Assembly (NCBI GenBank): GCA_004796375.1
Contig: QZLA01000234.1
Coordinates: 1 to 64,000, forward strand
Origin: Desulfobacteraceae bacterium
GTDB lineage: Bacteria; Desulfobacterota; Desulfobacteria; Desulfobacterales; Desulfobacteraceae
DNA length: 64,000 bases
Direction: 5' to 3'
In this document: positions 7,016 to 53,343 of the stretch, piece after piece
Layout of the letters: every line of letters begins with the position of its first letter
Position numbering within the stretch: the first letter of the stretch is position 1
Notes under the pieces: generated by a model
Database searches by the model: none
Told to the model about the DNA's origin: nothing
Seen by the model: only the letters and a program-made list of their open reading frames with translations
Program-made: the position numbers and the translations under genes

Positions 7016-7594
7016 ATGCTCAAAGGTTTTGCTTCTGAAGTGTTTGACAGCCAAAAGGTTTTCAGGCAATTGCTTGCGGCCATGGCAAATCCCGGACGAA
7101 TCATGGATATCGGTATCGATCTGGAATCGCCTGAATTCATTCATCCGGCCGCCGGAGCGATCCTGCTTGCATTGCTTGATTTTGAGACACCGCTCTGGTC
7201 TGATCTTGAAAACGACTCCAAAGAGATTCAATGGCTGCGGTTTCATACGGGTGCACCTTATGCATATGCGAAACGGAATGCACTATTTGCGCTTCAGACC
7301 GACTATGATGCGCTGGAAAGCGTTGATCAATTCAATCCGGGTACCTTGGAGGCCCCGCATCAATCCACCACTTTGATCGTGCACACCCGGGGAGTGGATA
7401 ATAACGGCAGAATCCGGCTTACAGGCCCGGGCATACAGACTGACAAGTTCTTAAAACTCAAGGGCATTAAAGAGAGTTTCCTGCACCAGCGCACCCAGAC
7501 CCTGAAAGACTATCCCCTGGGTGTGGATTTGATCTTTGTGTGGGATCACTACCTGGTCAGCATCCCGAGAACGACAAGCGTGGAGATTTTGTAA
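7016..7594 (+). CDS. phnH: C-P lyase complex subunit PhnH
   Basis: A 192-residue protein, the usual PhnH length, with family features FRQLLAAMANPGRI (about 17-30) and a central AAGAILLALLDFETPLW (about 44-60). PhnH is a structural subunit of the PhnGHIJ core and interacts with PhnG and PhnJ. The TAA stop shares its last A with the ATG of phnI, indicating tight coupling. Confidence 0.93.
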   Translation: MLKGFASEVFDSQKVFRQLLAAMANPGRIMDIGIDLESPEFIHPAAGAILLALLDFETPLWSDLENDSKEIQWLRFHTGAPYAYAKRNALFALQTDYDALESVDQFNPGTLEAPHQSTTLIVHTRGVDNNGRIRLTGPGIQTDKFLKLKGIKESFLHQRTQTLKDYPLGVDLIFVWDHYLVSIPRTTSVEIL

Positions 7595-8751
7595 TGTATG
7601 TAGCGGTGAAGGGGGGGGAAGCAGCAGTTGCAAATTCCAGGAAGCTGGTAAAGAGATCCAGGCGGGGACCACTGCATATTCCTAAAATAGGAACCGATCA
7701 AGTCGACCATCAGCTCGGTCTTGCCGTTGACCGGGTGATGGCCGAAGGTGCCCTGTACGATAGAAAAGCAGCAGCACAGGCTATTTTGCAATCCCAGGGG
7801 GATATGGTTGAGGCCATTTTCCTGTTGCGGGCGTTTAGAACGACCCTGAAGCGGTTTGGCAACTCAAAGCCGGTCAACACCGGTAAAATGCAGGTGATCC
7901 GCAGGGTGTCCGGTGCATTCAAGGATATTCCGGGCGGGCAGATCCTTGGGCCGACCTATGATTATACCCACCGGTTGATTGAGTTTGAAGATGAACCAGA
8001 GCCGCCATCCCGGGGAATCCAACCATCCCGGGAAGCTCAAATAGATAGCGACAGCACCTCACCGGATCAGGAATTGGCGGGACTGGCACCCCGGTTTCAG
8101 CAGCTGCCATGGGTGGTGGACATTTTGAGAAACCAGGGATTGATGCCGCCAGCCAGCGAAACACTTATTGGAGAGGCGGTCGAAGATCTGACCCGGGAAC
8201 CATTGAAAGTTCCAGCCTCCAGGAGTATCCGGCTTCAGAACCTTGCCAGGGGAGATGAGGGATTTTTGCTGGGCACCGCTTATTCGTTGCAGCGGGGATT
8301 TGGTCTTGACCGCCATCCCTTCCTGGGAGAGCTGCGGGTAGGTTACGTGGAACTGACCTACACCCCCCCGGAACTTGGATTTGAGATCTCCATCGGTCGG
8401 GTCAAAGTGACCGAGTGTTTTATGATCAACCGGAACGACGGCAGTGAAAACCGTTCGCCGGGATTTGAAAACGGGTACGGGCTTGTATTCGGGCAAAATG
8501 AGCGTAAGGCCATGTCCATGTCCCTTTTGGACCGGTCGCTTCAAAGTGCCGAAGAGGGCGTAGAGGTAAAATACCCGGCACAGGATCAGGAATTTGTGCT
8601 TTCCCACAGTGACAACGTGGAATCCTCCGGTTTTGTGCAGCACCTGAAGCTCCCCCATTATGTTGATTTCCAGTCAGAACTCGTATTCATCCGAAACTAC
8701 ACCAAAGATTCCCAGAAAAAGAGGAAGGTACCCGTTGAGTCTTCAGTATAA
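7594..8751 (+). CDS. phnI: C-P lyase nucleosidase subunit PhnI
   Basis: A 385-residue protein starting MYVAVKGGEAAVANSRKLV, the conserved PhnI N-terminus. I used the ATG at 7594 rather than an upstream frame from 7540. PhnI removes adenine from MgATP, and with PhnGHL makes the 5-triphosphoribosyl-1-phosphonate intermediate. It is somewhat longer than the E. coli protein (354). A mid-protein segment (about 135-165) rich in Pro, Ser and Gln looks like a loop insertion. The end overlaps phnJ by 17 bp. Confidence 0.93.
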   Translation: MYVAVKGGEAAVANSRKLVKRSRRGPLHIPKIGTDQVDHQLGLAVDRVMAEGALYDRKAAAQAILQSQGDMVEAIFLLRAFRTTLKRFGNSKPVNTGKMQVIRRVSGAFKDIPGGQILGPTYDYTHRLIEFEDEPEPPSRGIQPSREAQIDSDSTSPDQELAGLAPRFQQLPWVVDILRNQGLMPPASETLIGEAVEDLTREPLKVPASRSIRLQNLARGDEGFLLGTAYSLQRGFGLDRHPFLGELRVGYVELTYTPPELGFEISIGRVKVTECFMINRNDGSENRSPGFENGYGLVFGQNERKAMSMSLLDRSLQSAEEGVEVKYPAQDQEFVLSHSDNVESSGFVQHLKLPHYVDFQSELVFIRNYTKDSQKKRKVPVESSV

Positions 8752-9574
8752 CTTTGCATACCTGGACGAGCAGTCCAAAAAGATGATCCGGCGATCCATA
8801 CTTAAAGCGATGGCCATCCCCGGGTTCCAGGTTCCCTTTGGCGGACGTGAAATGCCGCTGCCTTACGGCTGGGGAACCGGGGGCATCCAGCTGACGGCAT
8901 CTTTGCTGGGCAAGGAGGACTGTTTGAAGGTGATCGACCAGGGATCGGATGATACCACCAATGCTGTCAGTATCAAGGATTTCTTTAAAAAAACCGCCCG
9001 GATTGAAATCACAGAGAACACTGAAGATGCCACCATTATCCAGACCCGGCACAGAATTCCGGAAACCCCATTAACACCCCAACAGATCATGGTCTACCAG
9101 GTTCCCATACCGGAACCGCTGCAATTCATCGAGCCCAAACGACAGGAAAATGCAAAGATGCACGCGTTTTCCGAATATGGAACCATGTATGTGAAGCTGT
9201 ATGAAGATATTGCCCGGCATGAACGGATCGCCATGGCATTTGACTATCCGGTCCATGTGAACGGCCGGTATATCATGAGCCCGTCACCCATCCCGAAGTT
9301 TGATAATCCCAAGCTCCACCAGTCCTGTGCCATGCATATTTTCGGGGCGGGACGGGAAAAAAGGATCTATGCGGTTCCCCCATACACAGATGTGGTGAGC
9401 CTTGATTTTGAAGACTATCCCTTTGAGCTTGAAGAGTGGGATGAATCCTGTGCTATCTGCGGTTCTGACCAGACGTTTCTGGATGAAATTATTACCGATG
9501 ACGAAGGAACACGAATGTTTGTGTGCTCTGATACGGAATTCTGCAGTCGTGTCCGGCAGAAAGGAAAGCGCTGA
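8735..9574 (+). CDS. phnJ: C-P lyase radical SAM subunit PhnJ
   Basis: A 280-residue protein, very close in length and sequence to E. coli PhnJ (281). It cleaves the C-P bond using SAM and a [4Fe-4S] cluster. The four Cys are at 239, 242, 264 and 270 (CAICG and CSDTEFC), offset by exactly two from E. coli 241, 244, 266 and 272. The glycine matching the glycyl-radical Gly32 is in AIPGFQ (Gly30). The start is a TTG at 8735 inside the end of phnI, supported by GAGGAAGG 6 bp upstream and by alignment (LSLQYNFAYLDEQ). An in-frame ATG at 8660 would add 25 foreign residues. Confidence 0.93.
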   Translation: MSLQYNFAYLDEQSKKMIRRSILKAMAIPGFQVPFGGREMPLPYGWGTGGIQLTASLLGKEDCLKVIDQGSDDTTNAVSIKDFFKKTARIEITENTEDATIIQTRHRIPETPLTPQQIMVYQVPIPEPLQFIEPKRQENAKMHAFSEYGTMYVKLYEDIARHERIAMAFDYPVHVNGRYIMSPSPIPKFDNPKLHQSCAMHIFGAGREKRIYAVPPYTDVVSLDFEDYPFELEEWDESCAICGSDQTFLDEIITDDEGTRMFVCSDTEFCSRVRQKGKR

Positions 9575-49794: not shown

Positions 49795-50916
49795 CTAACC
49801 CGGTTCAAGTAAATCAAGGACAAGAAAAATCGGGGGCAGTACAAACTGTCCCGTGGGCGGAGGCGGCGGGGGCGGCGCAATTTCAGGGATGACTACGGAC
49901 ACCCCGACATGGGCCATGCTGTTGTAGGCATCCCCCCAGGTCATGGTGTGCTGAAGGTGGTCCCAGGTGTCGTGGATATACACCAGATCACTGCTGTCAT
50001 CATATCCGGTACCCACAACTGTATGTCCGCTCAGGTGAATCAGAACCGGGTGACCGGTATCGATCTGCGTCTTGTACTGGTTATAGGTAAACCCTTTGGT
50101 ATTTCCGTTATACCCCATGATATACTGGTTGTACGCTTCATTGACCACATATCCCCGGGATTCATAGAACTCCTTGATGCCGTACATGCCGCTTTTCCCG
50201 TAAAAAAAAGGGCCTGAGGCAAAAATATCATCAGCCGTGATCGGGTCACCATATTTGCCGAAAAAAAAGTGAGTGGTCCCGTCTGCATTTCCCATGGGGT
50301 ATGAAGACTGGTTGGATCCCATGAAATCTCCAAGGCAGTCACCGGCGGTGTGCTGGGTCCAGCCGTTGGTGATAAAGGGATCATTGGCTGTACTGTTCTC
50401 GCTGATCCAGTAATCATCCACATGGCCGGTTGTGGCTCTTCCGTCAAGGCCCATCTGGGTGGCGCTCAAGGGACAGCGGTTCAGCTCTGCGCCTGATCCG
50501 TCAATCCAGGTGGTCCAGTATGCATCGTTATCCAGCGGCATGATCCCGCCATTGGCAGGACCGGTATACATGTCAGGCAAACCGTTCCGGTCGTAGTATC
50601 CGGCAATCATGGCTGCGGATGTGGGCGCACTGCCAAAACTCCAGGTAAAGGCCGGAACATCGGAAATAATGGTGATGGCCTGAGTCCCGTCCGGCACATT
50701 TTGCTGGACAATCGACCCCGGATCATTGGGGCCATGCGGGGGGGAACTGTTGATAATTAACTCTTCCAATTCCGGTTTGGCATGAGCCGGGGTGGGGCTC
50801 TTCGGTAAAAGGGAATCATTTGCCATCGTTTTGGCAGGAATAACATTAAAATGAATAAGAAGGGTCAATACAAAGATTAATCCGATTCTGCAAGAAGATT
50901 CTGTAATGGAAATCAT
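49795..50916 (-). CDS. secreted C39-like peptidase paralog, Cys replaced by Ser
   Basis: A 373-residue protein with an N-terminal hydrophobic export signal (about 8-30). The papain-like core matches its neighbour at 50950-52062 almost block for block: SAAMIAGYYDR, MYTGPANGGIMPL, MYGIKEFYESRGY and FTYNQYKTQIDTGHPVLIH. At the catalytic position it reads FTWSFGSAPTS, where the paralog reads YTWCFGCSATS, so both Cys are Ser. The His region (SGHTVVGTGYDD) and the Asp region (HDTWD) remain. The C-terminus is a poly-Pro tract and hydrophobic tail (PPIFLVLDLLEPG). It is likely a non-canonical or inactive partner, or a Ser variant. Confidence 0.8.
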   Translation of the reverse strand: MISITESSCRIGLIFVLTLLIHFNVIPAKTMANDSLLPKSPTPAHAKPELEELIINSSPPHGPNDPGSIVQQNVPDGTQAITIISDVPAFTWSFGSAPTSAAMIAGYYDRNGLPDMYTGPANGGIMPLDNDAYWTTWIDGSGAELNRCPLSATQMGLDGRATTGHVDDYWISENSTANDPFITNGWTQHTAGDCLGDFMGSNQSSYPMGNADGTTHFFFGKYGDPITADDIFASGPFFYGKSGMYGIKEFYESRGYVVNEAYNQYIMGYNGNTKGFTYNQYKTQIDTGHPVLIHLSGHTVVGTGYDDSSDLVYIHDTWDHLQHTMTWGDAYNSMAHVGVSVVIPEIAPPPPPPPTGQFVLPPIFLVLDLLEPG

Positions 50917-50949: not shown

Positions 50950-52062
50950 TTACTCATTGTATAGAAGCAGTGTGCTGGGTGCGGTGATTACGGGTGGTGC
51001 AGGTGCAGGGCCGAGTTTGACAATGGTGACGCCCACATGGGCCATGGGTGGATTGGTTCCATATGTGCCGCCCCACTCCATGAAATGCCCCTCATGATCC
51101 CAGGTGTCAAAAAGATAGATCCAGTTGGACATGTCATTGTACCCGAAGCCCACCATGGTGTGGCCCTCCACATGGATCATGACCGGTCGTCCCGCATCGA
51201 TTTCCGCCTTGTACTGGGCATAGGTGAACCCTAAGGTGTTGCCGTCGTATCCCAGGATATACTGGTTAAAGGCCTCAACCACGGCATATCCCCTGGATTC
51301 ATAGAATTCCTTGATGCCGTACATGCCGCTGGAGTTGTAATAGGCAGCGCCTGCTGCAAAAATCGCCTCGGCAGTCGTCTTGGCACCATTGGAATTGTAC
51401 CAGAAGGTGGTGGCCCCGTCCCGGTTATTCATGGGAGATGAGGACTGGTTGGTTCCCATATAATCGGCCGTGCATCCGCCCAGGGGATGCTGCGCCCATC
51501 CGTTTGTGATGAAGGGATCTGCTACCGCGCTGTCATAGGACACCCAGAAATCATCCACATGTCCCCGTGTTGACCTGCCGTCGAGTCCCAGCTGGGTGGC
51601 ACTCAACGGGCACCGGTGGCGGGTATCACCGGCACCATCAACCCATGTGGACCAGTAATCGTCATTGTTCAGGGGCATGACCCCGCCATTGGCCGGGCCG
51701 GTATACATGTTCCGGTAGCCGTTTCGGTCGTAGTATGCCGCTATCATGGCAGCCGAGGTGGCGGAGCATCCGAAACACCAGGTGTAGTATGGGACGTCAG
51801 GGACGGCATTGGCTGCGGACGGGAGGTCCAACGGCAAGGCCACAGCAGGGCGTGAAGATCCGTCCGGTGGCGCAGGCGGACCATTGATAATGGTCTTGTC
51901 AAACAGACTTCCGTCAGACTGGCTAACGGTTTCAACAGAATAATACGGGTTGACGATCTGCTTTTCAGCAAGCAGCACCGGCAGACAGAAAAAAAACTGG
52001 ATAATAAAGGTACCAATGAATAAAACCATGGGCTGAAAAGAAGACTTCTTGATCGTAATCAT
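50950..52062 (-). CDS. secreted C39-like cysteine peptidase
   Basis: A 370-residue exported protein with an N-terminal hydrophobic segment (about 10-32). The C39-like core starts at about 90, with YYTWCFGCSATSAAMIAAYY (candidate nucleophile Cys in the CFGCS segment), a His in EGHTMVGFGY and an Asp in LFDTWD. It lies 33 bp upstream of its paralog (same strand), so both are probably cotranscribed. AAGGAGG precedes the ATG. A weak TTCAAT-17-TACACT promoter is possible upstream. C39-family enzymes cleave leader peptides after small residues; the small duplicated Cys peptide gene just upstream is a possible but untested substrate. Confidence 0.82.
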   Translation of the reverse strand: MITIKKSSFQPMVLFIGTFIIQFFFCLPVLLAEKQIVNPYYSVETVSQSDGSLFDKTIINGPPAPPDGSSRPAVALPLDLPSAANAVPDVPYYTWCFGCSATSAAMIAAYYDRNGYRNMYTGPANGGVMPLNNDDYWSTWVDGAGDTRHRCPLSATQLGLDGRSTRGHVDDFWVSYDSAVADPFITNGWAQHPLGGCTADYMGTNQSSSPMNNRDGATTFWYNSNGAKTTAEAIFAAGAAYYNSSGMYGIKEFYESRGYAVVEAFNQYILGYDGNTLGFTYAQYKAEIDAGRPVMIHVEGHTMVGFGYNDMSNWIYLFDTWDHEGHFMEWGGTYGTNPPMAHVGVTIVKLGPAPAPPVITAPSTLLLYNE

Positions 52063-52194
52063 TTGGGGTCCTCCTTCTCAAGGTGTTTACAAAACTCACC
52101 ATTCAAAATGTGTCTTAGTGTATCCTAATTCCGACATTTATTGAAATCAATTTTTTTTGGAAAGGCAAACAGTGAATGATCCGGAGGGGTGAAG

Positions 52195-52241
52195 ATCTCC
52201 CATGCAGGCCCAAGGCGGTTTAATAGCCCGGCATGGGAGAT
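52195..52241. repeat. inverted repeat between the small peptide gene and the C39 genes
   Basis: ATCTCCCATGC (52195-52205) and GCATGGGAGAT (52231-52241) pair perfectly with a 25-nt loop, starting 10 bp past the small gene's stop. There is no T-run on the minus strand, so it may stabilise the mRNA 3' end or attenuate read-through rather than terminate fully. Confidence 0.5.
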
Positions 52242-52250
52242 GCGTGAGCG

Positions 52251-52451
52251 CTATTCATTTTTACCGATCGGGCAGGGTTCTCCGGCTTCGGCAAATGCAG
52301 AACAGGCCATGGTCTGCTCAAAGCTTTCCTTTGAGGGGGTTGTTTTTTGATTTGCACTATTGTCTTGACCCCCTATGGGACAGGGTTCTCCGGCTTCGGC
52401 ATATGCACTGCATGCCAGTGTATCCTGTACGGATTTGATAAATTTAACCAT
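52251..52451 (-). CDS. small peptide with two ACSAxAEAGEPCPIG units
   Basis: A 66-residue peptide built of two similar halves, ACSAYAEAGEPCPIG (13-27) and ACSAFAEAGEPCPIG (49-63), offset by 36 residues. The four Cys are at 14, 24, 50 and 60, ten apart in each unit. There is no signal peptide or membrane span. AGGAGGT sits 5-6 bp before the ATG, and a consensus promoter at 52519-52546 drives it, so it should be abundant. The units share 26 of 27 bases at their core. I associate AFAEAGE-type motifs with small deltaproteobacterial proteins from memory, unverified. It could be a metal-binding peptide, a precursor of a modified peptide or a small regulator. Confidence 0.72.
   Translation of the reverse strand: MVKFIKSVQDTLACSAYAEAGEPCPIGGQDNSANQKTTPSKESFEQTMACSAFAEAGEPCPIGKNE
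52273..52299. repeat. 27-bp direct repeat, copy 1 (in the small peptide gene)
   Basis: Starts CAGGGTTCTCCGGCTTCGGC and matches copy 2 at 52381-52407 in 26 of 27 bases, 108 bp (36 codons) apart. It encodes the C-terminal AEAGEPC unit on the minus strand. Confidence 0.9.
52381..52407. repeat. 27-bp direct repeat, copy 2 (in the small peptide gene)
   Basis: Second copy of the 52273-52299 repeat with one difference. Near identity at synonymous positions points to recent duplication or conversion. Confidence 0.9.
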
Positions 52452-52518
52452 GACGACCTCCTCATGTGGTTTAGGATATTAAAATCTGAAGCCACGATAA
52501 AAGTTAGTTTTGGCTAAA

Positions 52519-52546
52519 ATTATAAGATGGGTGGTGGTTTTGTCAA
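52519..52546 (-). promoter_or_regulatory. consensus sigma-70 promoter of the small peptide gene
   Basis: On the minus strand TTGACA (52546-52541), 16-bp spacer, TATAAT (52524-52519): 12 of 12 consensus bases. It starts 9 bp after the stop codon of the aldo/keto reductase gene. The leader would be about 60 nt. Confidence 0.8.
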
Positions 52547-52554
52547 GGTTCCAA

Positions 52555-53343
52555 CTAAAAAAAACCTTTTCCCCTGGTACGCACATGGTCACCGATTCGC
52601 TGAATCCGTTCCAGTTGACCGGGATCAATATCCGGATGTTCAATAACCGTGAGTGCCTCCTCCATCTGCTGTTGGTTTTTCGGGCCGCATAAGCAGACAT
52701 GAATAGAGGGATTGGCCAGGGCAAACCGGTAGCAGTCCGGGGCCGATAGCGGTGCCTCTCCTGGCGGCATATGCTTGGGATTCAACAGGTGTGCCCAACG
52801 GGTGGCTGTGTAGCTGACAATTCCCGGCCCATCCTGTTGGGGGAGATAGGGAAAGCAATCACTTTCAGCGCCCCGATGGGCAGCATTGTATCGGATATGA
52901 AACAGGTCAAATGCATGGGCCAGTTCGGGGAACAGGGAACGATTGTGGCCGGTCATGCCAATGAACCGGGCCAGTCCCTTTTCTTTGATTTTAACGGCAG
53001 TATCCATGAGCATGGATGCCGGTGATTTATTGTGCCATCCCAGGATAAAGATATCTGCATGGTCGATGCCCAGGGATTGCAGACTGCGTTTATACCAGAA
53101 TTCAGTTAAAACCCCCAGGCGGGCGTATGATTGGACGGCAATCACCATCTGGTCTCGTTTTCCCTGTTGAACCAGGTTTCGGACCGCTTCCTTCATCCCC
53201 TTCCGGTGTCGTCCGGACCCGAGATAGAAGTAATTACATCCCATTTCAAATGCTTTTTCAAACGCGGCGGCAGGCGCTCCGTAGCTCGCGGCAAGCCCAA
53301 TGCGTCCTACGTTTAGACCGGTTTTTCCCAGGATTGTCTTCAT
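52555..53343 (-). CDS. aldo/keto reductase family protein
   Basis: A 262-residue TIM-barrel oxidoreductase: LGKTGLNVGRIGLAASYG (about 5-22), an FEMGCNYFYLGSGRH active-site region (about 32-46, with Tyr), HADIFILGWHN (about 95-105), KEKGLARFIGMTGHN (about 120-134) and C-terminal PSIHVCLCGPKN (about 216-227). NAD(P)H-dependent reduction of a carbonyl is the usual activity. It is shorter than typical (about 280-330) and lacks the C-terminal Fe-S extension of some anaerobe members. GGAGGATATC precedes the ATG. The small peptide gene follows from its own promoter. Confidence 0.83.
   Translation of the reverse strand: MKTILGKTGLNVGRIGLAASYGAPAAAFEKAFEMGCNYFYLGSGRHRKGMKEAVRNLVQQGKRDQMVIAVQSYARLGVLTEFWYKRSLQSLGIDHADIFILGWHNKSPASMLMDTAVKIKEKGLARFIGMTGHNRSLFPELAHAFDLFHIRYNAAHRGAESDCFPYLPQQDGPGIVSYTATRWAHLLNPKHMPPGEAPLSAPDCYRFALANPSIHVCLCGPKNQQQMEEALTVIEHPDIDPGQLERIQRIGDHVRTRGKGFF

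Follow-up and report, generated by a model that had tools for sequence, protein, structure and literature searches.

The window, a stretch of 64,000 nucleotides at the start of contig QZLA01000234.1 of a Desulfobacteraceae genome, contains a very small gene for a cysteine-bearing peptide. The following features lie in and around it:

52251-52451, minus strand: gene for the 66-aa two-unit Cys peptide (open reading frame; homologues in 19 other genomes; dN/dS)
52365-52442, minus strand: unit 1, FIKSVQDTLACSAYAEAGEPCPIGGQ (profile match)
52257-52334, minus strand: unit 2, SKESFEQTMACSAFAEAGEPCPIGKN (profile match)
52456-52462, minus strand: Shine-Dalgarno sequence AGGAGGT, 4 nt before the ATG
52519-52546, minus strand: putative sigma-70 type promoter TTGACA-16-TATAAT (12/12 consensus)
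52186-52241 (approximate), minus strand: inverted repeat (stem of 11 bp, no T run; RNA fold z = -2.48)
50950-52062, minus strand: C39-like exported protein 1 (PF13529), a neighbour outside the system
49795-50916, minus strand: C39-like exported protein 2 (PF13529), with Ser for the putative catalytic Cys, a neighbour outside the system
52555-53343, minus strand: aldo/keto reductase (PF00248), a neighbour outside the system

As the initial annotation claimed, the open reading frame (product MVKFIKSVQDTLACSAYAEAGEPCPIGGQDNSANQKTTPSKESFEQTMACSAFAEAGEPCPIGKNE) encodes, in 66 codons, two ACSA[YF]AEAGEPCPIG units whose first cysteines are 36 residues apart (C14 to C50). The identity of 26/27 nucleotides that it gave also holds, for the core TGCATxTGCCGAAGCCGGAGAACCCTG, while the whole 78-nt units agree at 50/78 positions. 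The promoter and the Shine-Dalgarno sequence are both present as described, with the -35 hexamer (TTGACA) at 52546-52541, the -10 hexamer (TATAAT) at 52524-52519 and a spacer of 16. This promoter is the sole 12/12 site within 5 kb, the three other promoter-like sites each scoring 9/12. A strong promoter was considered as a trait of the whole family and rejected: one homologue reaches 11/12 and the remainder 6-10/12, the window copy being the best match. The inverted repeat sits directly after the peptide stop codon and is a possible 3' end structure; no Rfam family matched above its gathering score around the gene. The neighbours likewise correspond to their first description, with the aldo/keto reductase upstream and two C39-like proteins with hydrophobic N-termini downstream. 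In C39-like protein 2 (WSFGSAPTSAAM), Ser replaces the Cys found at the putative catalytic place of protein 1 (WCFGCSATSAAM), and it is likely an inactive paralogue of its tandem partner.

A single-sequence search of 58 relatives returned only spurious weak matches (to an unrelated frame, over query residues 20-59); a profile was therefore built from the units, in two stages (A1, then A2). A phylum-wide sample of 395 genomes yielded three more with strong matches to it. The homologues for which the initial annotation had suggested a search in related genomes turned up in 19 of a sample of 146 genomes from the order of those three, which is not the window's order. In the latter, 1/389 sampled genomes was positive, namely the window's own, and the result of a DNA pattern run on 389 genomes of the class is in line with this. 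The 19 include a degenerate copy in genome G780 (locus L113, 8681-8947), where the first Cys and unit 2 are missing. Matches to the family profile range from E 1e-18 to 1e-9, and the proteins carry two to four units in 66 to 162 residues. Most start with MDEKK-, MSEKK- or MTDKK-like residues, and no signal peptide was visible by eye in the homologues. The linkers between units are variable and hydrophilic, and Trp is absent. At the sequence level, the same repeated unit in 19 other genomes marks the window gene as real and not a chance reading frame. In Pfam, NCBIfam and PHROGs, nothing matched the peptide above the cut-off; a profile search of solved structures found no sequence relation, searches of plasmids, phages and viral contigs found no homologue, and no literature was found on the strings AEAGEPCPI and FAEAGE. 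The proposal of a small-peptide family so far undescribed, whose conserved cysteines keep a fixed spacing, is thus borne out.

The unit consensus is (V/I)E-D-T-(M/L)-A-C-S-A-(F/Y)-A-E-A-G-E-P-C-P-I. Across 45 units, A10, F/Y14, C21 and P22 are each present in 45/45, C11 in 44/45 and A13 in 44, and dN/dS is about 0.2-0.35 between related homologues; as judged from these alignments, both cysteines and the following proline are strongly constrained. Cys, Pro and Gly had been called invariant, which stands for the two cysteines (nearly so for C11) and the proline, whereas Gly18 occurs in only 33/45 units. The C-P-(I/L) sequence might also be read as a heme-regulatory-like motif that binds heme or a similar ligand. 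Cys-Pro is found in 45/45 units, and heme binding to disordered regions is known (PMC11699347). However, the first Cys and the helix are equally constrained, and no heme genes were noticed among the peptide's neighbours; this reading is very improbable.

No neighbour is common to all homologues. A gene for TauE/SafE, a sulfite exporter, lies within 3 kb of the peptide in 5/20 genomes versus 0.34 expected (P about 0.005 when counted as three independent arrangements), and one for beta-carbonic anhydrase within 0.5 kb in three genomes versus 0.02 expected, counts that were made after seeing the loci and that include several close relatives. Kinase and sigma-54 regulator genes, together with USP genes, also recur near the peptide gene. 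In several genomes of one clade, the genes for ChrB, ChrA, a 97-aa protein, an HD-rhodanese, the peptide and an MFS transporter form a run. The four to eight conserved cysteines per protein and the chromate-resistance genes of that clade would suit a metal-binding peptide, in which Cys pairs of neighbouring units bind zinc, copper or a reduced oxyanion metal as a metallothionein-like buffer or chaperone. Against this, His is nearly absent, the core unit has neither CxxC nor CxC, Cys density is low, and constraint extends to the helix (A10, F14), for which metal binding by itself gives no reason; metal binding is rather unlikely. The HD-rhodanese gene, directly upstream of the peptide in several genomes, points together with TauE to a sulfur carrier, whose C-x9-C would handle a persulfide or trisulfide and be fed by the rhodanese. 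The model would be the DsrC C-terminal arm, which keeps two strictly conserved cysteines (PMC4846661). The rhodanese linkage is confined to one clade, though, and with the profile no related solved structure was found; sulfur carriage appears unlikely, and less probable than metal binding.

By contrast with these recurrent genes, the 20 loci compared contain no relative of the C39-like proteins or the aldo/keto reductase among the neighbours of other homologues. The C39 genes, which the initial annotation had tentatively linked to the peptide, are thus not conserved at the homologue loci, and the C39-system reading fails for this reason, by that annotation's own criterion; both kinds of neighbour are particular to the window and outside the peptide system. 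The related idea of a modified or secreted peptide precursor, processed by the C39-like proteins, draws on the adjacency of the genes in the window and is already contradicted by the homologue neighbourhoods. Moreover, Ser stands at the putative catalytic place of the second C39 protein, the GG after unit 1 is not conserved, and no shared maturation or export gene cluster was noticed in the 20 loci, whose neighbours were Pfam-annotated in part. Of all the readings considered here, the precursor processed by C39-like proteins is the most improbable, and a RiPP reading in general draws no support from these loci.

The window copy itself lies away from stress genes (TauE, kinase, regulator, USP and similar neighbours are absent around it). 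Its neighbouring aldo/keto reductase has relatives (60% and 52%) in peptide-free genomes of the window's own order, and none was found in 11 genomes searched of the peptide-rich order. This kinship disfavours a contaminating contig, and the contig is thus probably native to the genome. The isolated peptide gene was more likely acquired, probably by horizontal transfer, or else survives as a rare relic. Because its cysteines are intact and its promoter is the best match of all copies, it is probably active.

Weak profile matches at positions 2-19 revealed another and larger group of proteins, which share the motif (V/M)EDxMAAxxFAEAGExxTA (the FAEAGE tag) at receiver-protein C-termini, at USP-like N-termini or in small or membrane proteins. 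Aligned by hhalign, Cys units and tags match with 96.9% probability (E 1.5e-10 over 20 columns). Invariance within the tag alignment (A3) is circular, since its members were picked by the motif. On the window's genome, the A3 profile finds the window peptide (E 3.9e-5) and one other locus only. The FAEAGE-type helix, (V/I/M)E-x-x-(M/F)-A-x-x-x-(F/Y)-A-E-A-G-E, is present in the Cys units, which carry EPCPI and a linker in place of the post-tag continuation D/E-T-A-x-x. These comparisons support the view that the first 20 residues of the Cys unit are the same module as the tag. The latter recurs across the phylum and appears to be undescribed, being unnamed in any library searched here. It was seen at L038-L048, L099, L119-L123, L129 and L130, in receiver tails, in USP-like proteins and in small two-tag and small membrane proteins; G780, the genome with the degenerate peptide, has no FAEAGE match at E 0.05. 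A cytidylate-kinase-like protein, named by eye from its N-terminus, was observed near FAEAGE proteins in two genomes, at L130 (1215-2471) and L119 (3714-4565).

The FAEAGE locus of the window's genome encodes USP-like proteins, a Lon protease with a receiver domain (PF00072, AAA and PF05362 by Pfam on L119), a sigma-54 regulator and a kinase. FAEAGE proteins adjoin receiver-Lon in three genomes, and the proteins at the two other loci are 57-58% identical to that of L119 over their whole length:

L119 (G000:C242), 7427-9430: receiver-Lon beside FAEAGE-tagged USP-like proteins
L120, 4220-6226: receiver-Lon beside FAEAGE-tagged USP-like proteins
L121, 10100-12187: receiver-Lon beside FAEAGE-tagged USP-like proteins

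In domain architecture, the locus is like DVU3298-3305 of Desulfovibrio vulgaris, where a receiver-Lon, a kinase and a regulator (DVU3303-3305) form a three-component general-stress system, DVU3305 controls DVU3298-3302, some of which have UspA domains, and induction is brought about by high pH, by heat and in stationary phase (PMC3333781). The peptide's position relative to such loci varies: in genome G808 it lies beside kinase, sigma-54 regulator, FAEAGE-USP, TauE and USP genes, other loci differ, and the window copy is elsewhere. The peptide could be an adaptor, decoy or substrate of receiver-Lon, with FAEAGE helices as docking tags and the Cys units as a thiol-controlled competitor. The homology of the tag and the three receiver-Lon neighbourhoods speak for this. 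However, the Lon gene is not adjacent to the peptide in the loci examined, and the tie between tag and Lon comes from sequence context; we consider it distinctly unlikely. The wider proposal, in which FAEAGE serves as a docking tag that brings stress proteins to a Lon under phosphorylation control or to its kinase complex, and the Cys repeat protein as a thiol-sensing multivalent tag coupling the cell's redox or oxyanion state to this proteolytic stress system, is improbable.

We infer that the peptide is probably a thiol-based protein of stress or docking. Its best explanation, held tentatively and put at less than an even chance, is a cytosolic, mostly disordered dithiol docking protein of oxyanion or thiol stress, CP12-like in working and with a reversible thiol switch. 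Each protein repeats a single short linear module two to four times, and the helical half of each module may dock onto a partner from the FAEAGE/receiver-Lon stress system. The C-x9-C pair would act as a reversible switch, in disulfide, persulfide or metal-bridged form. When oxyanions or oxidants such as sulfite or chromate disturb the thiol pool, this switch would set whether or how the helix docks. Spaced Cys pairs would thus gate partner binding as in CP12, to which the peptide is unrelated by descent. AlphaFold predicts helices at residues 3-20 and 41-55, each ending near AEAG, with EPCPI extended, at a pLDDT of only 51; the model fits a helix followed by a dithiol tail but proves nothing. 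Disorder is suggested by the composition and by the low confidence of this model. Several points weigh against this explanation: the homologues have no neighbour in common and the window copy lacks stress neighbours, the cysteines are missing from most FAEAGE tags, the link to DVU3298-3305 was drawn by domain architecture and not by sequence comparison, and the neighbour counts are post hoc and partly from closely related genomes, with a low-confidence structural model beside them. Its main rivals are metal binding and sulfur carriage.

These results define a conserved small-protein family outside the three annotation libraries and tie it by sequence to a tag common to proteins of a general-stress locus with receiver-Lon. 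If the tag is a docking signal, it would explain how a stress system of sulfate reducers, so far poorly understood, chooses its members, and the Cys version would supply redox input to that system. The 66-residue, two-unit protein is easily made and tested.

Among known systems, C39-processed peptides differ from this family, which shows neither C39 linkage across loci nor a conserved double-glycine site. Metallothioneins differ as well: here the core units have 2 Cys in roughly 38 residues, and no CxC or CxxC clusters. One FAEAGE protein gave marginal matches, below cut-off, to TPR hairpins (PF07721 and PF13428, E 0.05-0.08), but the Cys unit has EPCPI where a TPR has its second helix. DsrC also has two conserved cysteines in a flexible tail and occurs in sulfur-metabolising bacteria, and the spacing of its arm cysteines is probably similar to C-x9-C. 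However, it is a folded protein with one arm, its sequence differs, and no homology was found. The FAEAGE-tag proteins share the 20-residue helical module, (V/M)ED(T)MAxxxFAEAGE, but are mostly USP-like, receiver or membrane proteins that bear one tag each; their tags are mostly without cysteines and continue as xxTAxxx, which looks like a second helix. CP12 is a small, hydrophilic, mostly (conditionally) disordered protein with a helix and four cysteines in two pairs, spaced by seven or eight residues, with a Pro within the C-terminal pair (PMC9406205). Its AWD_VEEL core is, by inspection, absent from all homologues of the peptide, which have no Pfam match, no Calvin-cycle context and a single C-x9-C-P unit repeated two to four times. 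The small size, the two to four spaced C-x9-C pairs per protein and the suggested disorder are shared, and CP12, while not of the same family, is the nearest working analogue of the peptide.
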